Positions 7,852 to 21,933 are shown, counted from the stretch's first letter. The stretch is DNA of 38,145 bases from Spirochaetes bacterium ADurb.Bin133 (GCA_002070605.1 MWDO01000027.1:1-38145); one strand, 5' to 3'. Notes: generated by a model not told the origin, from the letters alone. Numbers and translations are program-made.

Positions 7852-10755
7852 TTACGCTATTTGTCTTTTCGCCAGTTCGGTAAAAAAACCGTTTTGCGCG
7901 ATTAACTCTTCGTATGTTCCCTCTTCGACAAGCGCTCCGTTTACCAAAACAAATATTTTATCGGCGTTGATTATCGTGCTTAGGCGGTGAGCGATAACGA
8001 CTCTCGTACAGTTAAGTTTCTCAATACTTTTGCTGATTAGCGCTTGAGTTTTATTATCGAGAGCGCTTGTCGCTTCGTCAAATAATAAGATTTTCGGTTT
8101 TTTTACGATTGCGCGGGCGATTAATAGTCTCTGTCTTTGTCCGCCGGAGAGAGTTCCGCCCCCTTCGCTAATAACGGTATGCATCCCCATCGGCATTTCG
8201 CGAATATCGTCGGCTAGACCGGCCGTCTCCGCGGCGCTCCACGCATCGTCTAAAGTCAGGTCGCTTGACGAACCGACGATATTCGAATAAATATCGTCCG
8301 CAGTTAATTTGCCGTTTTGAAGAACGGCCCCAGTCTGCTTTCTTACTTTTCTTAAGTCGATAGTGGAAATATCCTGTCCGTCGAACGCAATCGACCCGGA
8401 TTCGGCTTTCTCAAATCCAAGAATTAATCTCATCAAAGTAGATTTTCCGCTCCCGGACGGTCCGACTATCGCTACAAACTGACCGCTTTTTATTTTTAGC
8501 GAGATATTTTTGATAATCGCGGGAGAAGCGCTCGAGTATCTGAAAGTTACCCGATTAAAATCAATATTTCCCTCCAGAACTCCCGGATCGGACTTCGTTT
8601 TATCTCTCTCCGGAATTGTTTCAAGAATAGGCAGAGCTCTTTCATATAGAGGAACGATAGTTAAACTTTTGATAAAATTCCTTGATAACTCCAACAAAGC
8701 CGAAAGAAACATATTATACGAGGCGACGAACGCTATAAAATTGCCAACGGGCATTTTATCAAGACCGCCGATCGAAACAAAAAAGAACAAAATCGTCGAA
8801 ACTACCAACGGAAATATAATGTTAAGAATACTAACGTAAGAGAGAATATTATCGGATTTATATTGAAATTTTCGTTTTTTAGCAAAATCTTCAGCCCAGA
8901 GCGCAAAAGCTTTCTCTTCAGAATGAGACGTTCTAAATTTTGCTATACCGTTAATTATCTGCAATAATTTACCGGAGATTTTACCTTCGTATTCGACAAT
9001 TTTTCTCAAATATGCGGTGGATTTGATTCCCAAAATCAAAGTAACGAATATTAAGATTACGGCTAATAAAACGGCAATCCATGCGAGTTTTGAGTCGTAG
9101 AAAAAAAGTAAAATCAGATTAAATATTGAGAAAAATACCGCCAAAACGGAGGTTATTGCTCCCCCCGATACGGCGCGTCTTATCTCGCCGATACCGTTGG
9201 CTCTTTGCGCAAGATCCCCCGAAGTAAATTTTTTGAAAAAATCCGTCGGAAGATTTATCAATCTATCCCATACCGCCGCTTGTAAAGAGGAATCCATTTT
9301 GGTCTCGATTCGCAACATCGTAAAAACTTTTGTAATTTGAAAAATCATCCCCGAACAAATACAGACAAAAAGTAGAATTCCTACGTAAATTAATCCGCTC
9401 CTGTCGGCTCTGGGAATTATCGAATTAAACAACGCGCCGGTTATTATCGGGAAAATAACGCTTAATATTCCGCCGAAAACTCCGGAAAGCGCCATAACCA
9501 TGAGATCATACTTCCACACCCCTTCGAATGCGTATAAAAACAGATCCTTAGTCGTTAGTTTTTTATCCGGCAACGGCTTATAAAACATATACGCGGTTGA
9601 TTTTAGCGAATGCGCCGTTTGAGCGTCGACTTTTACGGTTTTACCGGTCGAATGATTATAAATCTTGTAACAGCCGCGAGCGCTCGGTATGAGAGCGACG
9701 GGAACATCTTGATTTTCAGTCTTTGAAGCGCCGTAAGCCGAATCGAGAAATCCGACTAATAGCCCGTTGTCCGACGTATGCCATTTATCTTTCAAAACAA
9801 CCTTACGGATTTGCAGATTCGACGCCGCGGCAAGCGAATTTAAATCAATTTTTACGCCGGGCGGGATCTTAAAATCCATATTTAAACGTCTACAGACGAC
9901 CTTCATAACGCCGATTATATCTTCGTCGTTATCGAGCTCCCGGCTATCTTTACGAGGATTCATAACTTCCGATAGAGATTTTAGCGAACTTTGCAATATC
10001 TGCTTTTCCAGATCAATTTTTTTCTGAATTCTCTCTCTCTCTTCCTCGTCGTCCATCCTGCTCTTATTTAAAAACCAAATAAGAATTTTGACAAATACCG
10101 ATAGTATTCTATCGATAAAAGCGTTATCGGCGATCGTCTCGTTCGTATTTTGGAGAATAATCGTCGAATCCGCCATACATTTAATGTAGTATGAATGAGG
10201 TATGGGAAAAAAGTCGTCGCCCGTCTTAAAAGAGACGTCGTCCGCGCCTAAAAGGCGCGATTCGCCGGAGGTATGCTTTATCCATTTTACCCCCTCTTCT
10301 ATCAAGACGATTTCCTCTTTCTCCAACTCCATCGTTTGCGCGCCGTCGAGAGTTCTATATTTTTTTTGATCTTTATTTTTAACGATCTGACAATATAATT
10401 TGATAATAGTATTATCAATAAACTTCGATACAAAGTCATTTTTCTCGGCGTCCGCAAACTTTTGAGCGCTATCCCTATCTATTTCCGCTATTCTTGCGTC
10501 GCGAGAGCCTACGCCGATCAAAGAGTATTCTTCGCCGCGCTCTATCGAAGAATATCCGCAAATAAAACTATTCTCCTCGAGCGTGAAAAGATATTTGCGG
10601 CGTCCGTAGGCGACTCCCTCTTTTATTTTTACTAAAAATATATCGATTTTACCTTTTATAATAAACCATATTTTAAAAGAATCGTTAAAAACAACCGGAT
10701 TATCGACGTTATTTGCTTTCGTATTAAAAAAATCGCTAATTTTTGTGTTTTCCAT
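7852..10755 (-). CDS. NHLM-type peptide export ABC transporter, permease/ATPase with N-terminal cNMP-like domain
   Basis: At 967 residues this is far longer than a plain ABC half-transporter. The N-terminal ~200 residues resemble the cyclic-nucleotide-type beta-roll found in the non-peptidase ABC subunit of NHLM (nitrile hydratase leader microcin) export systems. The middle (~420-700) is a six-helix exporter membrane domain. The C-terminal ATPase has Walker A GPSGSGKST (~764-772), signature LSGGQRQR (~867), Walker B ILLFDEATSALD (~890) and H-loop IAHRL. It has no C39 peptidase; the partner gene 8 bp upstream carries that. The pair probably forms the inner-membrane pump for a GG-leader peptide. 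It is the third gene of a minus-strand operon. Confidence 0.9.
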   Translation of the reverse strand: MENTKISDFFNTKANNVDNPVVFNDSFKIWFIIKGKIDIFLVKIKEGVAYGRRKYLFTLEENSFICGYSSIERGEEYSLIGVGSRDARIAEIDRDSAQKFADAEKNDFVSKFIDNTIIKLYCQIVKNKDQKKYRTLDGAQTMELEKEEIVLIEEGVKWIKHTSGESRLLGADDVSFKTGDDFFPIPHSYYIKCMADSTIILQNTNETIADNAFIDRILSVFVKILIWFLNKSRMDDEEERERIQKKIDLEKQILQSSLKSLSEVMNPRKDSRELDNDEDIIGVMKVVCRRLNMDFKIPPGVKIDLNSLAAASNLQIRKVVLKDKWHTSDNGLLVGFLDSAYGASKTENQDVPVALIPSARGCYKIYNHSTGKTVKVDAQTAHSLKSTAYMFYKPLPDKKLTTKDLFLYAFEGVWKYDLMVMALSGVFGGILSVIFPIITGALFNSIIPRADRSGLIYVGILLFVCICSGMIFQITKVFTMLRIETKMDSSLQAAVWDRLINLPTDFFKKFTSGDLAQRANGIGEIRRAVSGGAITSVLAVFFSIFNLILLFFYDSKLAWIAVLLAVILIFVTLILGIKSTAYLRKIVEYEGKISGKLLQIINGIAKFRTSHSEEKAFALWAEDFAKKRKFQYKSDNILSYVSILNIIFPLVVSTILFFFVSIGGLDKMPVGNFIAFVASYNMFLSALLELSRNFIKSLTIVPLYERALPILETIPERDKTKSDPGVLEGNIDFNRVTFRYSSASPAIIKNISLKIKSGQFVAIVGPSGSGKSTLMRLILGFEKAESGSIAFDGQDISTIDLRKVRKQTGAVLQNGKLTADDIYSNIVGSSSDLTLDDAWSAAETAGLADDIREMPMGMHTVISEGGGTLSGGQRQRLLIARAIVKKPKILLFDEATSALDNKTQALISKSIEKLNCTRVVIAHRLSTIINADKIFVLVNGALVEEGTYEELIAQNGFFTELAKRQIA

Positions 10756-10763
10756 AAATATTC

Positions 10764-12920
10764 CTACTGCGTCTTAATTAATTCGGCGTATTTTCCGTCG
10801 ATTTTCATCAATTCTTCATGCGTTCCCCTCTCTACGATTACCCCTCTATCCATAACTATTATTTCATCGCAATCCCGTATGGCGCTCAATCTGTGAGCGA
10901 TAATTAAAAGCGAACACCCTCTTCTTCCGACGTTTTCGTTTATTATTTTTTCCGTTTTTGGATCGAGCGCGCTGGTAGCTTCGTCCATGATGAGAATTCT
11001 CGGATTAACGGCAAGCGCCCGGGCAATTTCAAGCCGCTGTTTCTGACCGCCGCTGAAATTTCTCCCCCCCTCTTCGATCATATAAGAGTACCCGCCCGGT
11101 CTTTGTAGAATATCCCGGTCCATTACCGCGTCCTCCGCCGCCCTTAGGATATCCTCGTCCTTAATCGTAGTATCCCAAAGCGATATATTATCCTTAATCG
11201 TCCCTTCAAACATCGATATATCCTGATCTACCATAGCGATCGAAGCGGATAAAACGTCTTTTGATATAGTTTCGGCGGGTATTCCGTCAAAAAGAATCTC
11301 GCCTGACCACTGTTTGTATAAGCCGGAAATTAATTTCGATACGGTCGACTTACCGCTACCGGAGCCGCCGACAAGCGCTATACTGGAGCCGGCTTTTAAA
11401 GATAACGAGAAATCCTTAATTAATGGCTCTTCAAGAATATTATAGCCAAAAGAGACGTTTTTAAGCTCCAAATTTCCTTCTAATTTGTCATATTTATCTA
11501 AAGCATGATCCTTAATTTCGCGAAAACTTTCGTCGGTTTTATGGTTCAACACGTCGTTCACTCGATTGATATCGCCGGTTAATTCTTGAAAATCGACGGT
11601 TAATCCGACAATGCGGTTGATCGGCGCAAGAAAACTCGACATAAGACTTTGATAAGCGACGAGAGCTCCGAGAGTCATAAGCCCGTCGACCACTCTAAAG
11701 CCGCCGAGCGTAAGAATAACGGCGGTATTCAACATCGCCAAAAGCTGAGGGACGGATAAAAATATCAAATTAAACCTCTCCAACTCCTGTTCCGAATTTA
11801 ATAATTTTGTCTGATATCCCGACCATTTCTGGAAAAAATCGTTTTCGCCGCCGCCGGCTTTTAGAGTCTCTATCGTTTGTAGTCCCCCCATCGACACTCC
11901 GATAACTTTCCCCTTATCTTGTAATAATTTCAGATTACCGATTTTTAGTTTTTCCGACGAGATTTTCAAAAATATAACGTTTATCGACGCTATAAATACG
12001 CATATTAAGGTTAAAGATATATCGTATGATAGAAGTATTGCCAAATAGAATAAGATCGTTATGCAATCGATAATCGAACCGAGCAATTCTCCCGTCAGGT
12101 TGTCGGCAATATTATCGTTGGTCTCTACCCTATCGACTATCTCGCCTGCATATCTTTGCGAGAAAAAATTTATCGGCAGCCTAAGCGTCTGCCTTAAAAA
12201 CTTTGCCGATCCCGATAACGCCAGTTTAGTTTTTAGTTTTACTAAAAACGATTTTTGAAAATACGCTAAAGCCCCTCTGACTAAAGCGGTAAGCGTCATA
12301 CCAAACAGTAATGGAATTACCCAACCATTTAGATTTCTAAGGAGTATATTGTCGATAAATATTTTTGAAAAAACGGGAACGGCTATTCCCGGTATTATAC
12401 ATGCGAGTCCGGCGCAAATAATAAATAAAAGAGTTGTTTTTGAGCCGGAAAGAATTTTAAATATCGATTTAGCCGGATTTTCTTTTATTCCGAATCGTTT
12501 GAAATTTTCCGATTTTGAAAAAGTCAACGCCACTCCGGTAAACGACTGATCCAGCTCCTCCGTCGATATTATTCTTCTGCCGTAAGCCGGGTCGTTTAAA
12601 TAGACTTTATTCTTTCTAAAACCCTCTAAAACGACAAAATGATTGAAATTCCAATGAATTATTGCCGGAAACTGTATTTTCCTCAGCGATTCGGGCTCTT
12701 TTCTGTAACCTTTTCCGATTAAACCGAATTTATTAGCCGCTTTTAAGATATTGCTTGCTTTCGAGCCGTCTCTTGATACGCCGCACTCCACTCTTAACTG
12801 TTCCAAAGGGATATAGACTCCGTAATATGAAAGAATCATAGACAGAGACGCCGCTCCGCATTCAACGGCTTCCATTTGAAGAATAGTCGGAACTTTTACT
12901 AATTTTGACTTTTTGCTCAT
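10764..12920 (-). CDS. NHLM-type bacteriocin ABC transporter with C39 leader peptidase
   Basis: The 718-residue product is a PCAT: an N-terminal C39 peptidase, then an exporter membrane domain (~160-440), then an ATPase. The C39 catalytic set is complete: Cys21 (VECGAASL), His94 (FNHFVVLEG) and Asp110 (LNDPAYGRR). ATPase motifs are Walker A GGSGSGKST (~514-522), signature FSGGQKQRLEIARAL (~620) and Walker B ILIMDEATSALD (~640). In this family the peptidase cuts after a Gly-Gly leader while the protein pumps the core peptide. The likely substrate is encoded on the other strand at 14609-14761. It is co-transcribed with the HlyD-like gene (35-bp gap) and the second ABC gene (8-bp gap). Confidence 0.93.
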   Translation of the reverse strand: MSKKSKLVKVPTILQMEAVECGAASLSMILSYYGVYIPLEQLRVECGVSRDGSKASNILKAANKFGLIGKGYRKEPESLRKIQFPAIIHWNFNHFVVLEGFRKNKVYLNDPAYGRRIISTEELDQSFTGVALTFSKSENFKRFGIKENPAKSIFKILSGSKTTLLFIICAGLACIIPGIAVPVFSKIFIDNILLRNLNGWVIPLLFGMTLTALVRGALAYFQKSFLVKLKTKLALSGSAKFLRQTLRLPINFFSQRYAGEIVDRVETNDNIADNLTGELLGSIIDCITILFYLAILLSYDISLTLICVFIASINVIFLKISSEKLKIGNLKLLQDKGKVIGVSMGGLQTIETLKAGGGENDFFQKWSGYQTKLLNSEQELERFNLIFLSVPQLLAMLNTAVILTLGGFRVVDGLMTLGALVAYQSLMSSFLAPINRIVGLTVDFQELTGDINRVNDVLNHKTDESFREIKDHALDKYDKLEGNLELKNVSFGYNILEEPLIKDFSLSLKAGSSIALVGGSGSGKSTVSKLISGLYKQWSGEILFDGIPAETISKDVLSASIAMVDQDISMFEGTIKDNISLWDTTIKDEDILRAAEDAVMDRDILQRPGGYSYMIEEGGRNFSGGQKQRLEIARALAVNPRILIMDEATSALDPKTEKIINENVGRRGCSLLIIAHRLSAIRDCDEIIVMDRGVIVERGTHEELMKIDGKYAELIKTQ

Positions 12921-12955
12921 TTTACTCCCGCGCCTCTTATCCTACTAACAATAGC

Positions 12956-13798
12956 TCATTTTAATATAGGGATAACAAAAGAAATCGGACGTTTTTTTTC
13001 GACAATAACGTAACCGGAACAGATCGTTCCCCCCAATATTTTCGTATCGGGACCTTTTTTAGACGACCATGCGTAACCGCTTGGAGCGCTGGCTAAAGTA
13101 AAGAGTTCGACTTCCAACGCGATAACAGGTCCCGACGACGATAGGCTCTTTACAATGCTTTCATTTCCAAAGATTTTCATCATTCCTTGAAACGTCGCCG
13201 GATACGACGAAACGCTGGATACTTTTCCAAGCAGATACCCGTACTCCTCTTTTTTTACCGTCGAGGGCGATATATAAGCGCTCATACCGACCTCTATATT
13301 TTTACCTTCTGAAATAGGTATATAAATTATCGCTCGAATATCTTTGGGGTTAGCGGTTTGGTTGGCCGGCTCGACGCTGGCGACGACTTCTCCTTGCAGA
13401 ATAAAACTTCCCCGATTTACCATTACTTCTATAATTGTCCCGGAATATGGGCTGACAAAATTTGACGTAGGGGCGTCGGCCTCTTCAATCCGTTTAATTT
13501 TAGCGATAACGTTCCCTTTGTTAACGTAATCTCCGGGAGATATATTTATCTCTTCGATTATGCAGTTGGAAATATTCTTAATATTCATAACGCCGCCCGC
13601 TTTCATCAACATTCCGTTGCCTTCAATCTCTACCGGAATTTCTCCAAAAAAACTCCATATAATAACAAACGCTAATATCAATAATATTCCAAATAAGGAA
13701 ACCCAAGCGTACGGATTTGTTATATACAAAAGTTGGTCTATTTTCTCAGGCGAAGAGAGCCGCTCAAGAGACACCTTTCTGAAAATTGATTTATCCAT
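12956..13798 (-). CDS. NHLM-type secretion adaptor, HlyD/membrane fusion protein
   Basis: The 280-residue product starts FRKVSLERLSSPEKIDQLLYI, which matches the opening of NHLM secretion proteins well. One membrane anchor follows (~32-52), then a short biotinyl-lipoyl-like module with SPGDYVNKGNVIAKI, and a beta-rich C-terminal part. It lacks the long coiled-coil hairpin of full HlyD proteins, which is usual for this subfamily. It would link the ABC pair to an outer-membrane exit; no TolC homologue is in the window. The start is supported by AAGGAGT just upstream. It is the first gene of the export operon. Confidence 0.9.
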   Translation of the reverse strand: MDKSIFRKVSLERLSSPEKIDQLLYITNPYAWVSLFGILLILAFVIIWSFFGEIPVEIEGNGMLMKAGGVMNIKNISNCIIEEINISPGDYVNKGNVIAKIKRIEEADAPTSNFVSPYSGTIIEVMVNRGSFILQGEVVASVEPANQTANPKDIRAIIYIPISEGKNIEVGMSAYISPSTVKKEEYGYLLGKVSSVSSYPATFQGMMKIFGNESIVKSLSSSGPVIALEVELFTLASAPSGYAWSSKKGPDTKILGGTICSGYVIVEKKRPISFVIPILK

Positions 13799-13848
13799 AA
13801 ACGACTCCTTGATCGTATAAACTCGAGTTGTTTTATTAGAGTTATTTT

Positions 13849-13878
13849 ATTATCGGATACTAACGACAATATTTTCAA
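13849..13878 (-). promoter_or_regulatory. Candidate promoter of the NHLM export operon
   Basis: On the minus strand TTGAAA (13878-13873) is separated by 18 bp from GATAAT (13854-13849), putting transcription start near 13841, ~43 nt before the HlyD start codon. The match to a sigma-70 promoter is moderate in an AT-rich region. Confidence 0.4.
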
Positions 13879-13965
13879 ACCCTTTTTCTAAATTTATTTT
13901 GCATTATTTAATAATCCGTATTTACTCTGCCAATATAGCATTATTTTTAGAAAAAATTAATAAAA

Positions 13966-13994
13966 TTGTTGAAAAAAATTTAAAATAGTATTAT
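13966..13994 (+). promoter_or_regulatory. Candidate promoter of the cNMP-protein/precursor unit
   Basis: TTGTTG (13966-13971) and TATTAT (13989-13994) are 17 bp apart, upstream of the ATG at 14018. With the opposite promoter at 13849-13878 this makes a divergent regulatory region of ~220 bp. Matches are imperfect. Confidence 0.35.
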
Positions 13995-14017
13995 CCTTAA
14001 ACTAGAGGGGCGCTATT

Positions 14018-14554
14018 ATGAAAAAAGTTTTGTACATTTTCGGTCAATTGGACGACAAAGACGTGGAGTGGCTGATAAATAACGGCGATAACGAAAAAAT
14101 CGGACCGGGCAAAATTCTGATAAAAAAAGGAAATCAGGTCAAATATATATATATAGCGCTGGATGGTAAATTTTCCGTTTTAACCGGAGAAAATGAAGAT
14201 AAGAAAATTGCCGAGCTGTTGTGCGGAGACTTCATCGGCGAAATGTCGTTTGTCGATTCGACTCCGCCGAACGCAACGGTTAGGTCTGAGATGAACTCGT
14301 CCGTTTACTCCATATTAAAAACTAAACTTGAAAACAAGATAAAAGTGGATCAAGGATTCGGGCATAGATTTTACAAAGCGATATCGATTTTTCTTGCAGA
14401 CAGATTGAGAACTATGACCGCGCTTTTAAACGGTATAAAGGAAGAAGACATGGACGAAGAGATCAACTTAGAAAATAATATGATGTTTTTTGAAAACGTG
14501 TCTATGGCGGGAGACAGATTTCACAGAATGTTGACTAGAATGCAAAATAAATAG
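14018..14554 (+). CDS. Cyclic-nucleotide-binding-fold protein, no DNA-binding domain
   Basis: The 178-residue product is one cNMP-type beta-roll (residues ~10-115) followed by helices. The phosphate-binding cassette region reads FIGEMSFVDSTPPNATV (~72-88). The Gly-Glu pair is kept, but the Arg that grips the cyclic phosphate in CRP aligns with Pro84, so cAMP binding is doubtful. No helix-turn-helix follows, so it is not a CRP-type regulator. Stand-alone proteins of this kind are common beside NHLM export genes. It lies divergent from the export operon and 54 bp upstream of the precursor peptide. A regulatory or assembly role is inference. Confidence 0.82.
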   Translation: MKKVLYIFGQLDDKDVEWLINNGDNEKIGPGKILIKKGNQVKYIYIALDGKFSVLTGENEDKKIAELLCGDFIGEMSFVDSTPPNATVRSEMNSSVYSILKTKLENKIKVDQGFGHRFYKAISIFLADRLRTMTALLNGIKEEDMDEEINLENNMMFFENVSMAGDRFHRMLTRMQNK

Positions 14555-14596
14555 AATCTAAATCTAACAAGCGTCGCTTGTTTGAAATATAATTTT

Positions 14597-14602
14597 AAGG
14601 AG
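14597..14602 (+). promoter_or_regulatory. Ribosome binding site of the precursor peptide
   Basis: AAGGAG ends 6 nt before the ATG at 14609, a near-ideal Shine-Dalgarno that marks this short frame as translated. Confidence 0.8.
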
Positions 14603-14608
14603 CTATAT

Positions 14609-14761
14609 ATGCTAAAAAAAGACCAAGAAAAAAAATGCGAAGATAAGAAAAGTAAGATTATCGAGGAGCAAAACGAGGAGTTAGACGAGAAAAAACTTGA
14701 CGACGTGTCCGGCGGAGTGGGCGGCATGAAAAAACCCCCGTCAAATCGTAGATCGGAATAA
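14609..14761 (+). CDS. Double-glycine leader precursor peptide (putative NHLM-exported bacteriocin/RiPP)
   Basis: This is a 50-codon frame with a strong Shine-Dalgarno (AAGGAG, 6 nt upstream). Residues 1-36 form a charged, helix-prone leader ending LDEKKLDDVSGG, the classical GG-leader pattern recognised by C39 peptidases such as the one at 10764-12920. Cleavage after Gly36 would release the 14-residue core VGGMKKPPSNRRSE; a second GG at 38-39 would leave 11 residues. The core has no Cys and two Ser but no Thr, so lanthionine bridging is excluded. It carries four basic residues and PP. No tailoring enzyme is recognisable within the window. A large hairpin terminator follows at 14784-14840. 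Leader identification is strong; the biological activity (antimicrobial, signal or other) is unknown. Confidence 0.85.
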   Translation: MLKKDQEKKCEDKKSKIIEEQNEELDEKKLDDVSGGVGGMKKPPSNRRSE

Positions 14762-14783: not shown

Positions 14784-14840
14784 GCGGCTCTGTTTCTATA
14801 CCGTTAGAGAGCGCCGTTATAGAATAAGAGCCGCTCTTTT
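14784..14840 (+). terminator. Hairpin terminator after the precursor gene
   Basis: GCGGCTCT (14784-14791) pairs with AGAGCCGC (14827-14834), and inside it TTCTATA (14794-14800) pairs with TATAGAA (14818-14824). TTTT follows at the 3' side. It could end the precursor transcript, or partly attenuate read-through into the three exported-protein genes and keep peptide mRNA in excess. Confidence 0.7.
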
Positions 14841-14872: not shown

Positions 14873-15349
14873 ATGTCAAAATTTTTATATCTCTTTATCG
14901 TTTTCGTTTTTGTTTGCAGTTGTTCCGTCGAGAAAACTCCGGATTCTATGAGCAAAATTAACGATACGACAAAGGTAAAAACCGTTACTATCAAAAGCGG
15001 AACCAATTATACGGTACACAAAGTAAACGAACATAATCTTGTAACAAATAGTTCCTACGTCGATAAAAGCGGCGCTTTAATCGAAAGAGAATATATTTAC
15101 GGCAACGACAAAGACTTAGCGACCGTCGTAAAGACAAATTCGATAACGGGAACAGAAATAATCGGCATTACCACGACCGAAACCAGAGCCGGCGATAAGG
15201 TCGTTAAAAAGATTAAAACAAGATCTGATTCGAGAGGTAAAAACTCGGTCTTAACGGTAGATTACTACTACGACAGCGACGATAACGTAGTCGGCGTAGT
15301 TCAAACGGACTCGTACGGAAATATTATAGCAAAGGGGGTTGACAAATGA
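14873..15349 (+). CDS. Small putative lipoprotein with YD-like repeats
   Basis: The 158-residue product has a lipoprotein-type signal (hydrophobic run ending VCSC, Cys near 16-18). The mature part is beta-rich with repeats of the form YxDxxGxLIEREYIYG / YYYDSDDNVVGVVQTDSYGN, reminiscent of YD/YwqK-type hairpins. GGAG lies 9 nt before the chosen ATG. The stop overlaps the next gene by 4 bp (ATGA), so the two are coupled. It follows the GG-leader peptide and its terminator. I do not recognise a family; it could be an immunity or surface partner of the peptide, but this rests on position only. Confidence 0.65.
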   Translation: MSKFLYLFIVFVFVCSCSVEKTPDSMSKINDTTKVKTVTIKSGTNYTVHKVNEHNLVTNSSYVDKSGALIEREYIYGNDKDLATVVKTNSITGTEIIGITTTETRAGDKVVKKIKTRSDSRGKNSVLTVDYYYDSDDNVVGVVQTDSYGNIIAKGVDK

Positions 15350-16620
15350 GACTTTATAACAAAGTATTAGTATTTTTAGTAGTTTTATTATCAATTCCAT
15401 ATTTTGCATCGGCATATTCCGGTTTTCGAGATACCATAGTCGATTTCAACAATAACGTTATAGACTTCAGAGAAGACGGATTGATGGACAACGTTAGAAG
15501 CGGAGTTCTCGTCCATTACTCGCCTCTTGATCTAAAAGTCGGCAGTATCTTCATAGACGTCGACGGAATAGCTAAAAAAGTAGTAGGAATCCAGGTAGAC
15601 GGCGACGAAATTTTTATCGATACGGTACAGCCGCTTTTAAGAGAAGTTTTTGAATTCTACGATATTCCGACGCAAACTATATATTTTTCGCAAGAAAATC
15701 TTTTACCCGAATCTCTCCCTGAGGGAGCGACCGTATCGCCTCTTGACAGAGAGGGAGAAAGGGTCAGCGTAGGTTTAGAAAAAGTAATTACTCCGGCTAA
15801 AAATATGAAGCTTACGCTAGTCGCCCAAGCAAACATTGACGCCGGACTCAGTATAGGGGGGAGACTTCCATACTCATACCTTGACACTAAGGGGACGTGG
15901 AAATGGTGGAAATGGGAATGGCGATACGTACAGGGTTACGCCAGAGGGCATTTATGGTATGATATAAGATTGAACGGTACAGTCAAAGCGGAATTTGAGA
16001 AAACATGGGAATCGAAAGCGATACCGTTAGTCGCTTACGGTTCGCCTAGTCCGGGATTTAACTCCAGCGCCGGACTTTATACAAAAACTATCGTAACAGG
16101 CGCTCTGACTTTAACCGATGAATTGTACATCAGAATTGACGGAAACGCCGGCGCGGAGTGCGGTCTCGACGGTTTTACGGTCGTATGTTGGCCCGTTAAC
16201 GCCAGAGGGTGGTCTACGACGAACTTCGAAATCAACAACAAATTGACGCTTGAAGCCGACGTTAGATTCAAACAAAAACTATACCTGGGAGCTTCTGTTG
16301 AGCTATTCGGCTTCAATATATTTGAAATGGAAGCCGGCGGAGGACCTTATCTGCGATTTAACGCCAAATTAGCGGCAGGGTTTAACTACTCGACTAGAAA
16401 TAATCCAAGATTCAGCATGTGGGGATCGGCGGAAGGTTCGGGAAGTATCGGCGTTTTTGCAGAGGGAGAAGCCTCGTTGCTTAACGGAAAGTGGGAGAAA
16501 GAGCTTTTCTCGAAAGAATTCCCGATATACGAATTGTCAGGCAGAGCGTACGGCTCTAGAGCGAATGTTAACGATTCTTATTTGAACTATTCTCCGAATT
16601 CTGACTATATAATTCAATGA
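15346..16620 (+). CDS. Exported beta-rich protein of unknown function
   Basis: The 424-residue product has a Sec signal peptide with a likely cut after SAYA-like residues (FASAYSG, ~22-24). The mature protein is rich in Gly, Tyr and Trp with alternating hydrophobic strands and a striking Trp/Lys cluster near residues 183-196 (WKWWKWEW). The C-terminal half has repeated amphipathic strands with GEAS/EGSGSIG turns. That could be a beta-sandwich or barrel, but it lacks a terminal aromatic residue typical of outer-membrane barrels. Translation is coupled to both neighbours (ATGA upstream, closely spaced gene downstream). I do not recognise a family. The three-gene unit with a GG-peptide upstream suggests a shared envelope role. 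Confidence 0.65.
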   Translation: MRLYNKVLVFLVVLLSIPYFASAYSGFRDTIVDFNNNVIDFREDGLMDNVRSGVLVHYSPLDLKVGSIFIDVDGIAKKVVGIQVDGDEIFIDTVQPLLREVFEFYDIPTQTIYFSQENLLPESLPEGATVSPLDREGERVSVGLEKVITPAKNMKLTLVAQANIDAGLSIGGRLPYSYLDTKGTWKWWKWEWRYVQGYARGHLWYDIRLNGTVKAEFEKTWESKAIPLVAYGSPSPGFNSSAGLYTKTIVTGALTLTDELYIRIDGNAGAECGLDGFTVVCWPVNARGWSTTNFEINNKLTLEADVRFKQKLYLGASVELFGFNIFEMEAGGGPYLRFNAKLAAGFNYSTRNNPRFSMWGSAEGSGSIGVFAEGEASLLNGKWEKELFSKEFPIYELSGRAYGSRANVNDSYLNYSPNSDYIIQ

Positions 16621-16634
16621 TAAAGGAGAACGAC

Positions 16635-17750
16635 ATGAAAAGAGTAACGATTTTTTTTATTACTATTGCGCTATTAACGACGATACTATTGAGTTGCCCG
16701 CCTCAACCCGAGGAAAATACCGATAGTCCGTCGCCGGCTAGTACGACGTCGGACCCTTTTAAAGAGAGTCTGATCGAAAGATATATCGAAAAATACGACG
16801 GAACTACCGACTTAAATATTGCTTCTTGGTACTATCTCGCCGACGGAACATTGGGCGAATATTCAGTTTACTATTACGACGAACATGGTAGAGATACCGA
16901 GGTTCTCTCTTACAGCTCAGAGACGACGAGCGACTCCTCCTATCAGGGCAAGTACAAATATACTTACGACGCCAGTATCGTAGATTCCAACGACCCCCGT
17001 TTTCGATGTATTATTAAAGGGGAAGTTCTCGATAAGAACAACGTTGTTTTGCAAAGTTATGACGCGACTTATAACGAAAAAGGCAACTATCTGACGTTCG
17101 TTTTAAAAGATTCCGCCGAAGAAGTTTTAGAGAGCAGAACTTCGACTTACGACGCAAGCGGCGACCATTATATAAAAGAGACGTACTATAACAGCGCCGA
17201 ACAGATAGAAGCGAACAAATTTGAGGAGTATACCTGTACATACAACCCGGCAATACCTGGACAATATATAGAAGAGATAAAGTACCATAAGGTATCCGCC
17301 GATTATACCGATGCTACTATGGATTACCCTGATTATGAAACTACTATAACCTATAAGTTTTTCTGGAGGAACGACTCCGATAAAATGCACTATTTACAGC
17401 AGAGTTTTGACGTTTCCGGAGATCTTTGCGATATGATACAGTATCAGTTCGACTCCAATGGAAACAAAACAATGAGATCGGTTTATTCCGGCGGTAAAAC
17501 TCAATCGTACAGAACATATGCTTACAACGAAGATAATAATCTTATTAACGAATCCATATACTCCATGAGTCTCGGCGATAAACTGGAAAATAAATTTTTA
17601 TACCGTTACTACGGTACCGAGACCGAATTTTACCGCGAAGAGACGTCTTATAGTTACAGCTATCCGGAGGATAGTAGAAGCTTAAAAGGCTCGGCTCTTA
17701 CTAAAAAGAACTTTATAACGCCAAAATCTAATCGGATCTGCAATCCGTAA
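16635..17750 (+). CDS. Putative lipoprotein with YD-like repeats
   Basis: The start at 16635 is preferred over the in-frame ATG at 16617 because AAAGGAG (16622-16628) sits 6 nt before it and the product then begins directly with a lipoprotein signal (MKRVTIFFITIALLTTILLSC, Cys21). The mature ~350 residues hold at least six imperfect repeats of Y(D/N)xxGxxxxxxxY (YYDEHGRDTEV, YNEKGNYLTF, YDASGDHYIKE, FDSNGNKTMRS, YNEDNNLIN), as in the first lipoprotein of the unit. Such hairpin repeats occur in surface and toxin-associated proteins, but here no toxin domain is seen. A strong hairpin with T-tract follows at 17757-17794. Confidence 0.7.
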   Translation: MKRVTIFFITIALLTTILLSCPPQPEENTDSPSPASTTSDPFKESLIERYIEKYDGTTDLNIASWYYLADGTLGEYSVYYYDEHGRDTEVLSYSSETTSDSSYQGKYKYTYDASIVDSNDPRFRCIIKGEVLDKNNVVLQSYDATYNEKGNYLTFVLKDSAEEVLESRTSTYDASGDHYIKETYYNSAEQIEANKFEEYTCTYNPAIPGQYIEEIKYHKVSADYTDATMDYPDYETTITYKFFWRNDSDKMHYLQQSFDVSGDLCDMIQYQFDSNGNKTMRSVYSGGKTQSYRTYAYNEDNNLINESIYSMSLGDKLENKFLYRYYGTETEFYREETSYSYSYPEDSRSLKGSALTKKNFITPKSNRICNP

Positions 17751-19131: not shown

Positions 19132-20739
19132 ATGAAAAGCGTCAAATTTATTTTTGTTTCGGGCGGCGTATGCTCGTCGTTAGGAAAAGGGATAGCAAGC
19201 TCGTCGATCGGAGCTTTACTGGAAGGATGCGGATATAAGATAGCGATGACAAAGGTAGACCCGTATATTAATGTCGACGCCGGCACGATGAGTCCATACC
19301 AGCACGGCGAAGCGTACATTACGGACGACGGCGCCGAGACCGATCTTGATCTGGGCAACTACGAGAGATTCACAAAGACGCTTCTTTCCAAAAAAAATTC
19401 TATTACTACTGGACAAGTTTACAAAGAGGTCATTAGAAGAGAGAGAGAAGGAGATTATCAGGGGAAATGCGTTCAGGTTATTCCTCATATAACGGACGAG
19501 ATCCGTAAAAGAATCAAGTCTTCCGCCGACAAAGACACCGATATATCCATAGTAGAGATCGGCGGAACCGTCGGAGATATCGAGTCCATTCCGTTCCTTG
19601 AAGCGGCTAGACAGTTTATTACCGACGTAGGCAGAGACAACGTGATTTTTGTTCATCTCACTCTTGTTCCCAAGATAACCGCCGCCGACGAATTCAAAAC
19701 TAAGCCGACGCAACATAGCGTTCAAAAACTGCGCGAAATAGGTATTCAACCGGATATATTGCTCTGCAGGATAGACGGCGAGATGGATCAGATGATGAAA
19801 AAAAAGATAAGTCTCTTTACAAACGTCGAGGAGGAGGCGGTTATCGAATCTGTAACGGTAAGTTTATCCATATATGAAATACCCGCTCTTTACGATGCGA
19901 AGGGATTGACTAAGATTCTTTTAAAAAAACTCCGTCTGCCTTACGAGGGGGTAAAAACAAATTTAAAAATCTGGTACGATCTCGTAGATAAAATAAAAAA
20001 TCCAAAATATACTTCAAAAATTGCGGTCGTCGGAAAATATATAGAACTTCAAGACGCTTACAAATCGATTTACGAGGCGTTAGATCACGGAGGACACGCA
20101 AATTCGACCAGACTTGAGATAGTAAAAATTCAGAGCGACAATATAAATGAAAACAACGTTTCTGAAATATTGAAAGACGTAGACGGGATTCTCGTTCCGG
20201 GCGGGTCTGTAGAGAAGGGAATAGAGGGCGAACTATTATCGGTAAAATATGCCAGAGAAAACAAAATTCCGTTTTTTGGAATTTGTCTGGGTATGCAAGT
20301 TATGGTTATAGAATACGCCAGAAATGTCCTAGGACTAAAAGACGCAAATTCTACCGAATTAGAATCAAAAACCCCCTACCCCGTCGTTAGTCTCCTTGAA
20401 GAACAGGAGGGCGTCGACAACAAGGGCGGCTCTATGAGACTCGGCGCTTACGACTCGACCGTTATCGAAGGGACAAAACTTCACGCGGCGTATAATAAAA
20501 CTAAAATTTCGGAGAGACACAGACGCCGCTACGAATTTAATAATAAGTTTAAGGAAGATTTTGAAAAAGCGCGTCTTGTTATATCTTGTAAAACGGAGGA
20601 AGACAATCTCGTCGAAGCGGTCGAATGGCCGGATCACCCCTTCGGCGTCGGAGTACAGTTTCATCCGGAATTCAAATCAAAACCGATAGAGCCGCATCCG
20701 TTGTTTAAGATGTTTATTAAGTCGACCTTGAAAAAATGA
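19132..20739 (+). CDS. pyrG: CTP synthase
   Basis: The 535-residue product is full-length PyrG: UTP + ATP + glutamine to CTP. The N-terminal synthase domain has the P-loop region SSLGKGIASSSIGALLE (~13-29), DPYINVDAGTMSPYQHGE and the DDGAETDLDLGNYERF block. The C-terminal class I glutamine amidotransferase has the nucleophile elbow FGICLGMQ (Cys385) and the VQFHPEFKS histidine-glutamate pair. Its stop overlaps the start of lptC by 4 bp (ATGA), so CTP synthesis and lipopolysaccharide export genes are co-transcribed, a linkage seen in other Gram-negative lineages (CTP feeds CMP-Kdo). Confidence 0.97.
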   Translation: MKSVKFIFVSGGVCSSLGKGIASSSIGALLEGCGYKIAMTKVDPYINVDAGTMSPYQHGEAYITDDGAETDLDLGNYERFTKTLLSKKNSITTGQVYKEVIRREREGDYQGKCVQVIPHITDEIRKRIKSSADKDTDISIVEIGGTVGDIESIPFLEAARQFITDVGRDNVIFVHLTLVPKITAADEFKTKPTQHSVQKLREIGIQPDILLCRIDGEMDQMMKKKISLFTNVEEEAVIESVTVSLSIYEIPALYDAKGLTKILLKKLRLPYEGVKTNLKIWYDLVDKIKNPKYTSKIAVVGKYIELQDAYKSIYEALDHGGHANSTRLEIVKIQSDNINENNVSEILKDVDGILVPGGSVEKGIEGELLSVKYARENKIPFFGICLGMQVMVIEYARNVLGLKDANSTELESKTPYPVVSLLEEQEGVDNKGGSMRLGAYDSTVIEGTKLHAAYNKTKISERHRRRYEFNNKFKEDFEKARLVISCKTEEDNLVEAVEWPDHPFGVGVQFHPEFKSKPIEPHPLFKMFIKSTLKK

Positions 20740-21290
20740 GAATAGCGATATTTTTTGTTATATTAATTTTGAGTTGTTCTTACGACCGATCAAAATACGA
20801 TAGAGACGAGACTGTCGAATATCCCGATATGATTCAGGATATATACGTTCATTATATTTATAAAAATAACAAAAAATACCTCAAAACCGAAATAACAAGG
20901 GCGGAATTCTACGAAAAATCCGGAAAAATACGGTGCGACGGTCTAAAAACCGATATATTTAACTCGAAAGGCGCGCTAACTACGGAGATATTTGCCGATA
21001 AAGGAAATATAGATAAAAACGATAAACTCGTTATATTTACGGGAAACGTTAGGATTAAGACTTTTGAATCAAAATCTACAATATTTACCGAGGAGTTGTA
21101 TCTGGATTATAAAAACAACAAGTTGTTCTCAAACGTTCCGGTAAGTATAAAAAAAGACGACGGCTCTTATCTTAACGCGTCTAGTATGGAGTCGGATATT
21201 AAAACGGAAGAGTCCAGTTTTCAAAATATGGAGATCAAATATTTTTACGAAGCGGACGACGAAGGAAAAAATGTTAAAAAGAAAAAGTAA
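20736..21290 (+). CDS. lptC: LptC-like LPS export bridge protein
   Basis: The 184-residue product has a lipoprotein-type N-terminus (FFVILILSC) and a single OstA-like beta-jellyroll: YLKTEITRAEFYEKSGKIRCDG..., EIFADKGNIDKNDKLVIFTGNVRIKT. The order of strands and position before lptA identify LptC. It would link the LptB2FG pump to periplasmic LptA. Canonical LptC has a membrane anchor; a lipid anchor is a variation. The start overlaps pyrG by 4 bp and its 3' end overlaps lptA by 20 bp. Sequence conservation in LptC is low, so the symbol rests on context as well. Confidence 0.82.
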   Translation: MRIAIFFVILILSCSYDRSKYDRDETVEYPDMIQDIYVHYIYKNNKKYLKTEITRAEFYEKSGKIRCDGLKTDIFNSKGALTTEIFADKGNIDKNDKLVIFTGNVRIKTFESKSTIFTEELYLDYKNNKLFSNVPVSIKKDDGSYLNASSMESDIKTEESSFQNMEIKYFYEADDEGKNVKKKK

Positions 21291-21933
21291 ATTTCTGAAA
21301 ATTATAGTTATTTTATTCATATCGGCGGCGTCGTTAAACGCAAAAATTGACGAGTTGAATCTAAAATCCGACCACGGCTCGTATAACGAAGCCAAAAAGA
21401 TCTTCTTCGCCCAAGGCAACGCTCATATAATAATAGACAACAACGAGATATTTTGCGACGAAATGGAGATCCATTTAACCAAAGACGACAACGTTGAAAA
21501 AGCTATTTTTAAAAGAAATATCCGCATTTTTCAGGAAAAAGAGAAGATACAAATCGGCGGCGAATACGCCGAATACTATAAAAAGGATAAACAGTTCGTT
21601 ATCAGGGACAACGCCTTTTACGCGGACGTAGAAGAGGAGGTCGCGGTATTCGGAGATTCTATATACAATTACGATAAAGAAAAAATCGCAATAGTGCAAG
21701 GAAACGCTCGCATCTATCAAAAAGATATATACGCAAAAGGCGCAAGCGTAAAATATACAAGAAAAGATAAACTTATGGAAATCAGCGGTTTTCCGACCGT
21801 TGAAAATCAGGGCTCGACTTATAACGCAAAAAAAATAATAGTCAACGTCGAGGCAAACACTTTCTATCTGGAAGGAGGGATCGACGCTATTATTCTAAAT
21901 GAAGAGAAAGAGGAAGATAAAAAAGCCGATTAA
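21271..21933 (+). CDS. lptA: LptA/OstA-family periplasmic LPS transport protein
   Basis: The 220-residue product has a Sec signal (FLKIIVILFISAASLNAK) and repeated OstA beta-strand units: KSDHGSYNEAKKIFFAQGNAHIIIDN, FCDEMEIHLTKDD and NARIYQKDIYAKGASVKYTRKDKLMEISG. LptA oligomers form the periplasmic bridge that carries LPS to the outer membrane. It lies between lptC (20-bp overlap) and lptB (24-bp gap). The C-terminus ends in a charged EKEEDKKAD tail. Confidence 0.88.
   Translation: MLKRKSKFLKIIVILFISAASLNAKIDELNLKSDHGSYNEAKKIFFAQGNAHIIIDNNEIFCDEMEIHLTKDDNVEKAIFKRNIRIFQEKEKIQIGGEYAEYYKKDKQFVIRDNAFYADVEEEVAVFGDSIYNYDKEKIAIVQGNARIYQKDIYAKGASVKYTRKDKLMEISGFPTVENQGSTYNAKKIIVNVEANTFYLEGGIDAIILNEEKEEDKKAD

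Follow-up and report, generated by a model that had tools for sequence, protein, structure and literature searches.

NHLM exporters are usually read as exporting modified, bacteriocin-like peptides that carry long NHLP or Nif11 leaders. ComC/CSP and EntF-type systems are found in Gram-positive bacteria and have adjacent two-component receptors. The export of class II microcins uses TolC, and in HlyD-type adaptors it is the coiled-coil hairpin that contacts TolC. In the spirochaete Treponema denticola, TepA1-B1 and bacteriocin-type signal domain proteins are secreted as cargo with Gly-Gly (GG) leaders, and no bactericidal activity was detected for them; cargo of this type consists of proteins of 167-614 residues with the GG at residues 17-18 (PMC11879956). 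Among the papers searched, there was none on NHLM systems in spirochaetes. The locus described here combines NHLM export genes, a very short GG-leader peptide and three surface proteins, and the recurrence of this set as one cluster in distant spirochaetes points to a putative, unstudied short secreted peptide system.

The window, that is, the whole stretch of DNA analysed, is a contig of 38,145 nucleotides (C27; MWDO01000027.1) from Spirochaetes bacterium ADurb.Bin133, whose genome comprises 2.99 Mb in 103 contigs and is 95.6% complete. Relatives were gathered with the C39 transporter as the query, and their flanking genes were then read. By this protein, the closest named relatives are the Spirochaetota MAGs Go_SlDig_bin_318 (89%) and GWE1_32_154 (65%). 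Five loci are compared throughout with that of the window, and all are together called the six loci: L106 (genome G004), L107 (G007), L108 (G006), L052 (a Treponema MAG) and L068 (a Spirochaetales MAG). The original prediction, made from the window alone, described three NHLM export genes divergent from a gene with a cNMP fold and from a 50-codon frame. The first four of these genes are the following.

7852-10755, minus strand: NHLM second ABC permease/ATPase (TIGR03797), by profile score and motifs
10764-12920, minus strand: NHLM C39 peptidase/permease/ATPase (TIGR03796), by profile score and Gln15/Cys21/His94/Asp110
12956-13798, minus strand: NHLM secretion protein (TIGR03794), HlyD-like and without the coiled-coil hairpin, by profile score and architecture comparison
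14018-14554, plus strand: cNMP-binding-fold protein, TIGR03896-like, by its cNMP-binding domain; directly upstream of the precursor on the same strand

All three export genes lie above the curated NCBIfam cut-offs, with 864 versus 709 bits for TIGR03797, 1048 versus 853 bits for TIGR03796 and 272 versus 156 bits for TIGR03794, in which the central hairpin is missing. Walker and signature motifs are both present in the NHLM ABC genes, and the C39 gene, the sole one in its own genome above the TIGR03796 cut-off, has Cys21, His94 and Asp110 exactly where they had been claimed, as well as Gln15. In the 967-residue TIGR03797 protein, about 280 N-terminal residues lie beyond the profile match (window 9904-10755); its counterparts in G006 and G007, at about 720 residues, are about 245 residues shorter. 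The divergent gene does encode a cNMP-binding domain, and its match to TIGR03896, the family of bacteriocin-transport-associated cNMP proteins (E 1e-35), reaches 123 bits, under the cut-off of 161, and spans profile positions 140-316 only. Homologues of this gene are present in L106, L052 and L068.

The 50-codon frame was also found as predicted, with its AAGGAG and a leader ending in LDDVSGG, and leads into a 14-residue core.

14597-14602, plus strand: Shine-Dalgarno sequence AAGGAG, with 6-nt spacing to the ATG
14609-14761, plus strand: GG-leader precursor peptide of 50 residues (leader 1-36, predicted core 37-50, VGGMKKPPSNRRSE), from the sequence and from homologues in L106, L107, L108, L052 and L068
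14717-14758, plus strand: predicted mature core of 14 residues, net +3, no Cys, GRAVY -1.66
14784-14834, plus strand: terminator-like element downstream of the precursor, a stable hairpin (-25 kcal/mol, z -4.4) and then TCTTTT; not among the calls of a simple terminator scan

The frame runs from an ATG at 14609 to a stop ending at 14761, with Gly36 encoded at 14714-14716, and reads MLKKDQEKKCEDKKSKIIEEQNEELDEKKLDDVSGG/VGGMKKPPSNRRSE (leader/core). The leader ends and cores of its homologues are ...ELNTENLNEVSGG/TGAGSNSGRRFKRPDSNHHSE in G004, ...ELKDQDLEDVSGG/AGPSNRHRD in G007, ...ELNEQDLENVSGG/VGPRHSHRD in G006, ...ALDDSALDEVSGG/AKGVTRNTGTTGGHHSR in the Treponema MAG and ...ELNMDDLENASGG/GYVPGSGSGMNKPGPSHHHENP in the Spirochaetales MAG. 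All six are preceded by a strong Shine-Dalgarno sequence, and each adjoins the cNMP gene or the gene for the small lipoprotein introduced below. In G006, translation probably begins at an internal GTG, which gives a peptide of 33 residues. At 33-58 residues, these precursors are small enough for annotation to miss them at times.

A profile was built from the six precursors, the window's row included. In the window's own genome it matched the 50-residue frame (E 1.4e-19) and nothing else at E<=1. Across 11 genomes it gave one strong match per positive genome (n=6; E 1e-12 to 1e-24), always at the NHLM locus. These matches are the rows that built the profile; independent of it are the position they have in common and the lack of any further match. 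The next best match in any of the 11 genomes had an E of 0.03, and there was no match in G002, G003, G005 or G008. When 19,370 small ORFs from the collected loci were scored, members of the family came out at E<=5e-13 and all others, including the GG boxes of other NHLM precursors, at E of at least 1e-5. The search of NHLM-bearing genomes that the original prediction had proposed thus found homologues in five other spirochaete genomes, and only at NHLM loci. The frame is almost certainly a real gene.

The leader has the anatomy expected of a C39 substrate. Leu-12 and Leu-7 are found in all six precursors and Val-4 in five, the exception being Ala in L068. In the C39 domain of LahT, the residues at -4, -7 and -12 sit in a hydrophobic groove (PMC6363468), and the predicted GG box of the precursor matches the C39 substrate rules, with hydrophobic residues at -12, -7 and -4. 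None of the six precursors matches TIGR03793 (NHLP), and their best match to TIGR03798 (N11P) has an E of 0.11, with no Nif11-like leader domain. The leaders match only generic GG families, including those of the ComC and EntF pheromone precursors, and all below cut-off; such matches show only a common type of GG leader. Conservation, operon context and the anatomy of the leader give strong support to the first proposal, that the peptide is the GG-leader cargo of the NHLM exporter, and the 50-residue peptide is very probably what the C39 transporter carries.

Candidates for a second cargo did not hold. The only other match in the genome to a narrow L-D-x-V-x-G-G DNA pattern lies inside a frame of more than 950 residues, and the precursor profile gave no further match. 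A match, G554, in the family of the Treponema MAG proved to be a cluster of other GG peptides, outside the precursor family. Another short-core case is found outside spirochaetes: an NHLM locus of Clostridia (L037, 4928-5089) encodes a GG precursor of 53 residues with a 12-residue core, YPETPPPYGKSN. This locus also encodes a Peripla_BP_6 protein.

The original prediction ended the locus at 14761, which is too early, since a triad of genes (14873-17750 in the window) is part of it in each of the six loci.

14873-15349, plus strand: small lipoprotein (lipo) of weak YD/RHS/MORN-like repeat character; kept in 6/6 loci
15346-16620, plus strand: secreted beta-rich protein (p424) with a Sec-type signal peptide by sequence; kept in 6/6 loci
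16617-17750, plus strand: lipoprotein of repeated beta-strands (p377); kept in 6/6 loci

The genes of the cluster all point the same way, as in an operon, in four genomes (G004, G006, G007 and the Treponema MAG), and in G007 and G006 they follow the order precursor, lipo, p424, p377, HlyD, ABC1, ABC2, with most gaps of a few bases. In the Treponema MAG, a clostripain-family (C11) peptidase is encoded between p377 and HlyD (L052, 7537-9054), and it could perhaps trim an Arg-containing core. None of the triad proteins could be matched with confidence to a Pfam or NCBIfam family or a PDB sequence: lipo belongs to no significant Pfam family, and p424 matches nothing in any of the three libraries. 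For the AlphaFold model of p377 (pLDDT 76), Foldseek finds local similarity, at low TM, to Rhs/YD-repeat and porin-like folds. The best matches of the p424 model (pLDDT 71) are barrels and pore-formers at a TM of about 0.1 and an E of at least 0.02, and are not meaningful. Homology between lipo and p377 was rejected, as the match covers only 17 columns, and a search for p424 on plasmids or viral contigs found none.

p424 is present in 5 of 393 Spirochaetota genomes, all of them among the 14 with a close NHLM C39 transporter; this co-occurrence is inflated by shared ancestry, and the Treponema and Spirochaetales loci, which represent other lineages, pair likewise. In 49 NHLM-bearing genomes of other phyla, there was a single partial p424 match, to part of a protein secreted by Paenibacillus. 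This protein has 782 residues (L162, 91-2439), and its C-terminal region resembles an F5/8-type C domain. Further triads with no precursor nearby are found in G004 (two), G006, G007 (at a contig end) and G002 (diverged).

L130, 7524-10407: paralogous lipo-p424-p377 triad without a nearby GG precursor
L131, 8365-11949: paralogous triad without a nearby GG precursor; p424 has F5/8-type C and Flg_new domains
L133, 6913-9650: paralogous triad without a nearby GG precursor
L132, 2232-3468: paralogous triad without a nearby GG precursor, cut by the contig end
L134, 1757-5518: paralogous triad without a nearby GG precursor, diverged

The triad can therefore occur without an adjacent peptide gene. An extracellular module is suggested by one p424 paralogue, in which F5/8-type C domains and Listeria-Bacteroides repeat domains are present. 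In addition, the C-termini of p377 proteins (e.g., TPKSNRICNP; window 16617-17750) look like the tails of the peptide cores (PPSNRRSE). The likeness exceeds that of shuffled controls (22/2000 and 45/2000) and was noticed before being tested. As a case of mimicry it was rejected, because cognate pairs are no more alike than non-cognate ones (p 0.25), and it is a weak lead only.

Conservation of the frame wherever the export genes are kept was one of the points on which the original prediction could fail: the frame is retained in five other genomes, and the only loss is in G002, of the same genus, on a 4.1-kb contig with 6x coverage. The C39 transporter of G002 is kept at 89% identity, and its contig joins HlyD (window 13664) straight to lipo (14929) at a short similar sequence.

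L026 (= L010), about 390-450: HlyD-lipo junction of G002

The start of HlyD, the cNMP gene and the precursor are missing together across this junction, and neither a close cNMP homologue nor the precursor is found elsewhere in G002. The junction may be either a real 1.3-kb deletion, in a degrading locus, or an assembly chimera. As the HlyD gene of G002 is itself beheaded, either case gives no proof of a working exporter without the peptide.

The locus had also been described as complete for processing and export. This is overstated, because the coiled-coil hairpin is wholly absent from HlyD in five of the six loci (about 100 residues of it are kept in G004) and a Pfam/NCBIfam-type scan of the genes in the window's cluster found no TolC gene. 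The adaptor here cannot reach TolC in the usual way. Of the two marks of type I secretion with TolC, an adaptor hairpin and an outer-membrane channel, neither was found within the cluster; three TolC-type (OEP) proteins are encoded elsewhere in the host genome. Downstream of the cluster, at 19132-21933, are housekeeping genes for CTP synthase and for LptC-like and LptA/LptD-N-like proteins, a set consistent with a diderm envelope. The loss of the hairpin suggests delivery to the periplasm or another exit route, and crossing of the outer membrane is left unaccounted for by an adaptor without a hairpin and a cluster without TolC.

In the C39 tree, the short-peptide loci other than L068 group together at 99 SH-aLRT. 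A single short-peptide clade that includes L068 is not rejected (p-AU 0.76), and its likelihood is above that of the free quick tree. Most other spirochaete NHLM loci form a separate clade, mostly with a long HlyD; in these loci the adaptor mostly has 371-461 residues, and one has 165. Loci L135-L143 represent a separate NHLM lineage in the phylum. Peripla_BP_6 lipoprotein and OEP (TolC) domains were confirmed in L137 and are presumed from look-alike sequences elsewhere in L135-L143. Several of the other spirochaete loci carry long-leader precursors that are Nif11-like in appearance.

The observed genes and motifs, their conservation and co-localisation, and the adaptor architecture form the basis of a proposed mechanism. 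The precursor would be made with a leader ending in L-D-D-V-S-G-G. From what is known of the family, the C39 domain of the TIGR03796 transporter would grip Leu-12, Leu-7 and Val-4 and cut after Gly36. The 14-residue core would then cross the inner membrane via the C39 transporter, the second ABC subunit and the short, hairpin-less HlyD, and its place of action would be beyond the cytoplasm. There it would most likely serve the co-encoded triad of surface proteins as a signal, a ligand or a partner. The identity of the cargo is well supported; its function is what we infer. On balance, we favor a dedicated NHLM-type exporter of diderm spirochaetes for one very short, probably unmodified peptide that serves as a signal or ligand with the surface triad. 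Taken by itself, the idea that the core works with the triad as a signal or ligand, within the envelope or at its surface, has a little less than an even chance of being correct; no pheromone kinase or receptor was recognised among the scanned neighbouring genes.

A peptide that carries no information between cells should also be considered. It might be a structural or assembly factor that remains periplasmic, binds the triad (e.g., p424) through its conserved tail and aids assembly at the surface. This is unlikely, though it would fit the co-occurrence of peptide and triad in six loci, the periplasmic delivery that the hairpin-less HlyD suggests and the weak likeness between core tails and p377 C-termini. 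The likeness, however, is not specific to cognate pairs, and paralogous triads have no adjacent peptide.

The cores themselves bear on whether the peptide kills. The predicted cores of the six precursors have 9-22 residues and are hydrophilic and Cys-free, with few Ser/Thr. For their C-terminal tails, the anchored sum-of-pairs score was reached in 0/3000 within-core shuffles; shuffling leaves shared ancestry in, and the score therefore reflects homology or constraint, undistinguished. A small class II-like bacteriocin directed at neighbours, with the lipoproteins as immunity proteins, is hard to reconcile with cores that are strongly hydrophilic and have no hydrophobic or amphipathic stretch, with tails conserved across orders, with one copy per genome and with further triads that have no toxin gene. 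In its favour are the usual annotation of NHLM and GG-leader systems, which is bacteriocin export, and the weak matches of the leaders to bacteriocin GG families. Overall, this reading is improbable.

Comparably doubtful is a RiPP proper, in which an unlinked or unrecognised enzyme modifies the core. Haft et al. took NHLP precursors to be peptides that undergo post-translational modification and are exported by the same transporter family (PMC2887384), and the enzyme search took in neighbouring genes only. Nevertheless, no peptide-modifying (tailoring) enzyme was recognised among the scanned proteins of the window and its neighbourhood, and Cys is absent and Ser/Thr scarce. Because no enzyme was recognised nearby and cores are as short as 9 residues, the core is judged probably unmodified. 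Finally, short GG-containing ORFs do arise by chance and G002 has no frame, but a chance ORF or remnant, with the true cargo elsewhere, is made very improbable by the conserved leader, tail and Shine-Dalgarno sequence of five homologues at corresponding positions and by the lack of any other precursor-like match in the genome.

The signal or ligand reading can be extended, at less than even odds, to an undescribed system of diderm spirochaetes in which an NHLM C39 exporter whose adaptor has no hairpin would deliver an unmodified, tail-conserved peptide of 9-22 residues to the periplasm or cell surface, where it would control a novel three-protein surface module, with one peptide possibly serving several copies of the module per cell. 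The interest of the locus is a lineage whose single tiny peptide is apparently unmodified, is conserved across orders of spirochaetes and is tied to a surface triad that is uncharacterised. Confirmation would add spirochaetes to the bacteria with short GG-peptide signalling or assembly, in a compact, testable set of eight genes.

Among known systems, NHLP/Nif11 (N11P) export (PMC2887384) shares with the window the TIGR03794/03796/03797 families and the GG-box logic, and the window's cNMP neighbour is TIGR03896-like, although below the cut-off. In contrast to it, the window's precursor is short, single-copy and devoid of a nitrile-hydratase-like or Nif11 leader domain, and its locus has no modification enzyme nearby, a surface triad and a hairpin-less HlyD. 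The ComC/CSP and EntF pheromone precursors are similar in having a short GG leader and a short core for a C39 ABC transporter, as the sub-threshold profile matches reflect, whereas the present system is found in a diderm, with NHLM-type transporters, a surface triad and no kinase among its neighbours. Class II microcin export likewise pairs a C39 ABC transporter with a HlyD-family adaptor in diderms, but the TolC-docking hairpin is absent in five of six loci here and the cargo is far shorter. TepA1-B1 (PMC11879956) is also spirochaete GG-leader cargo encoded beside lipoproteins and a putative bacteriocin ABC transporter, although that cargo consists of large proteins and the precursor in the window has 50 residues. 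The exporter is of a known kind, while the precursor family, the triad and their pairing with a hairpin-less adaptor are undescribed in the libraries and papers that were searched.
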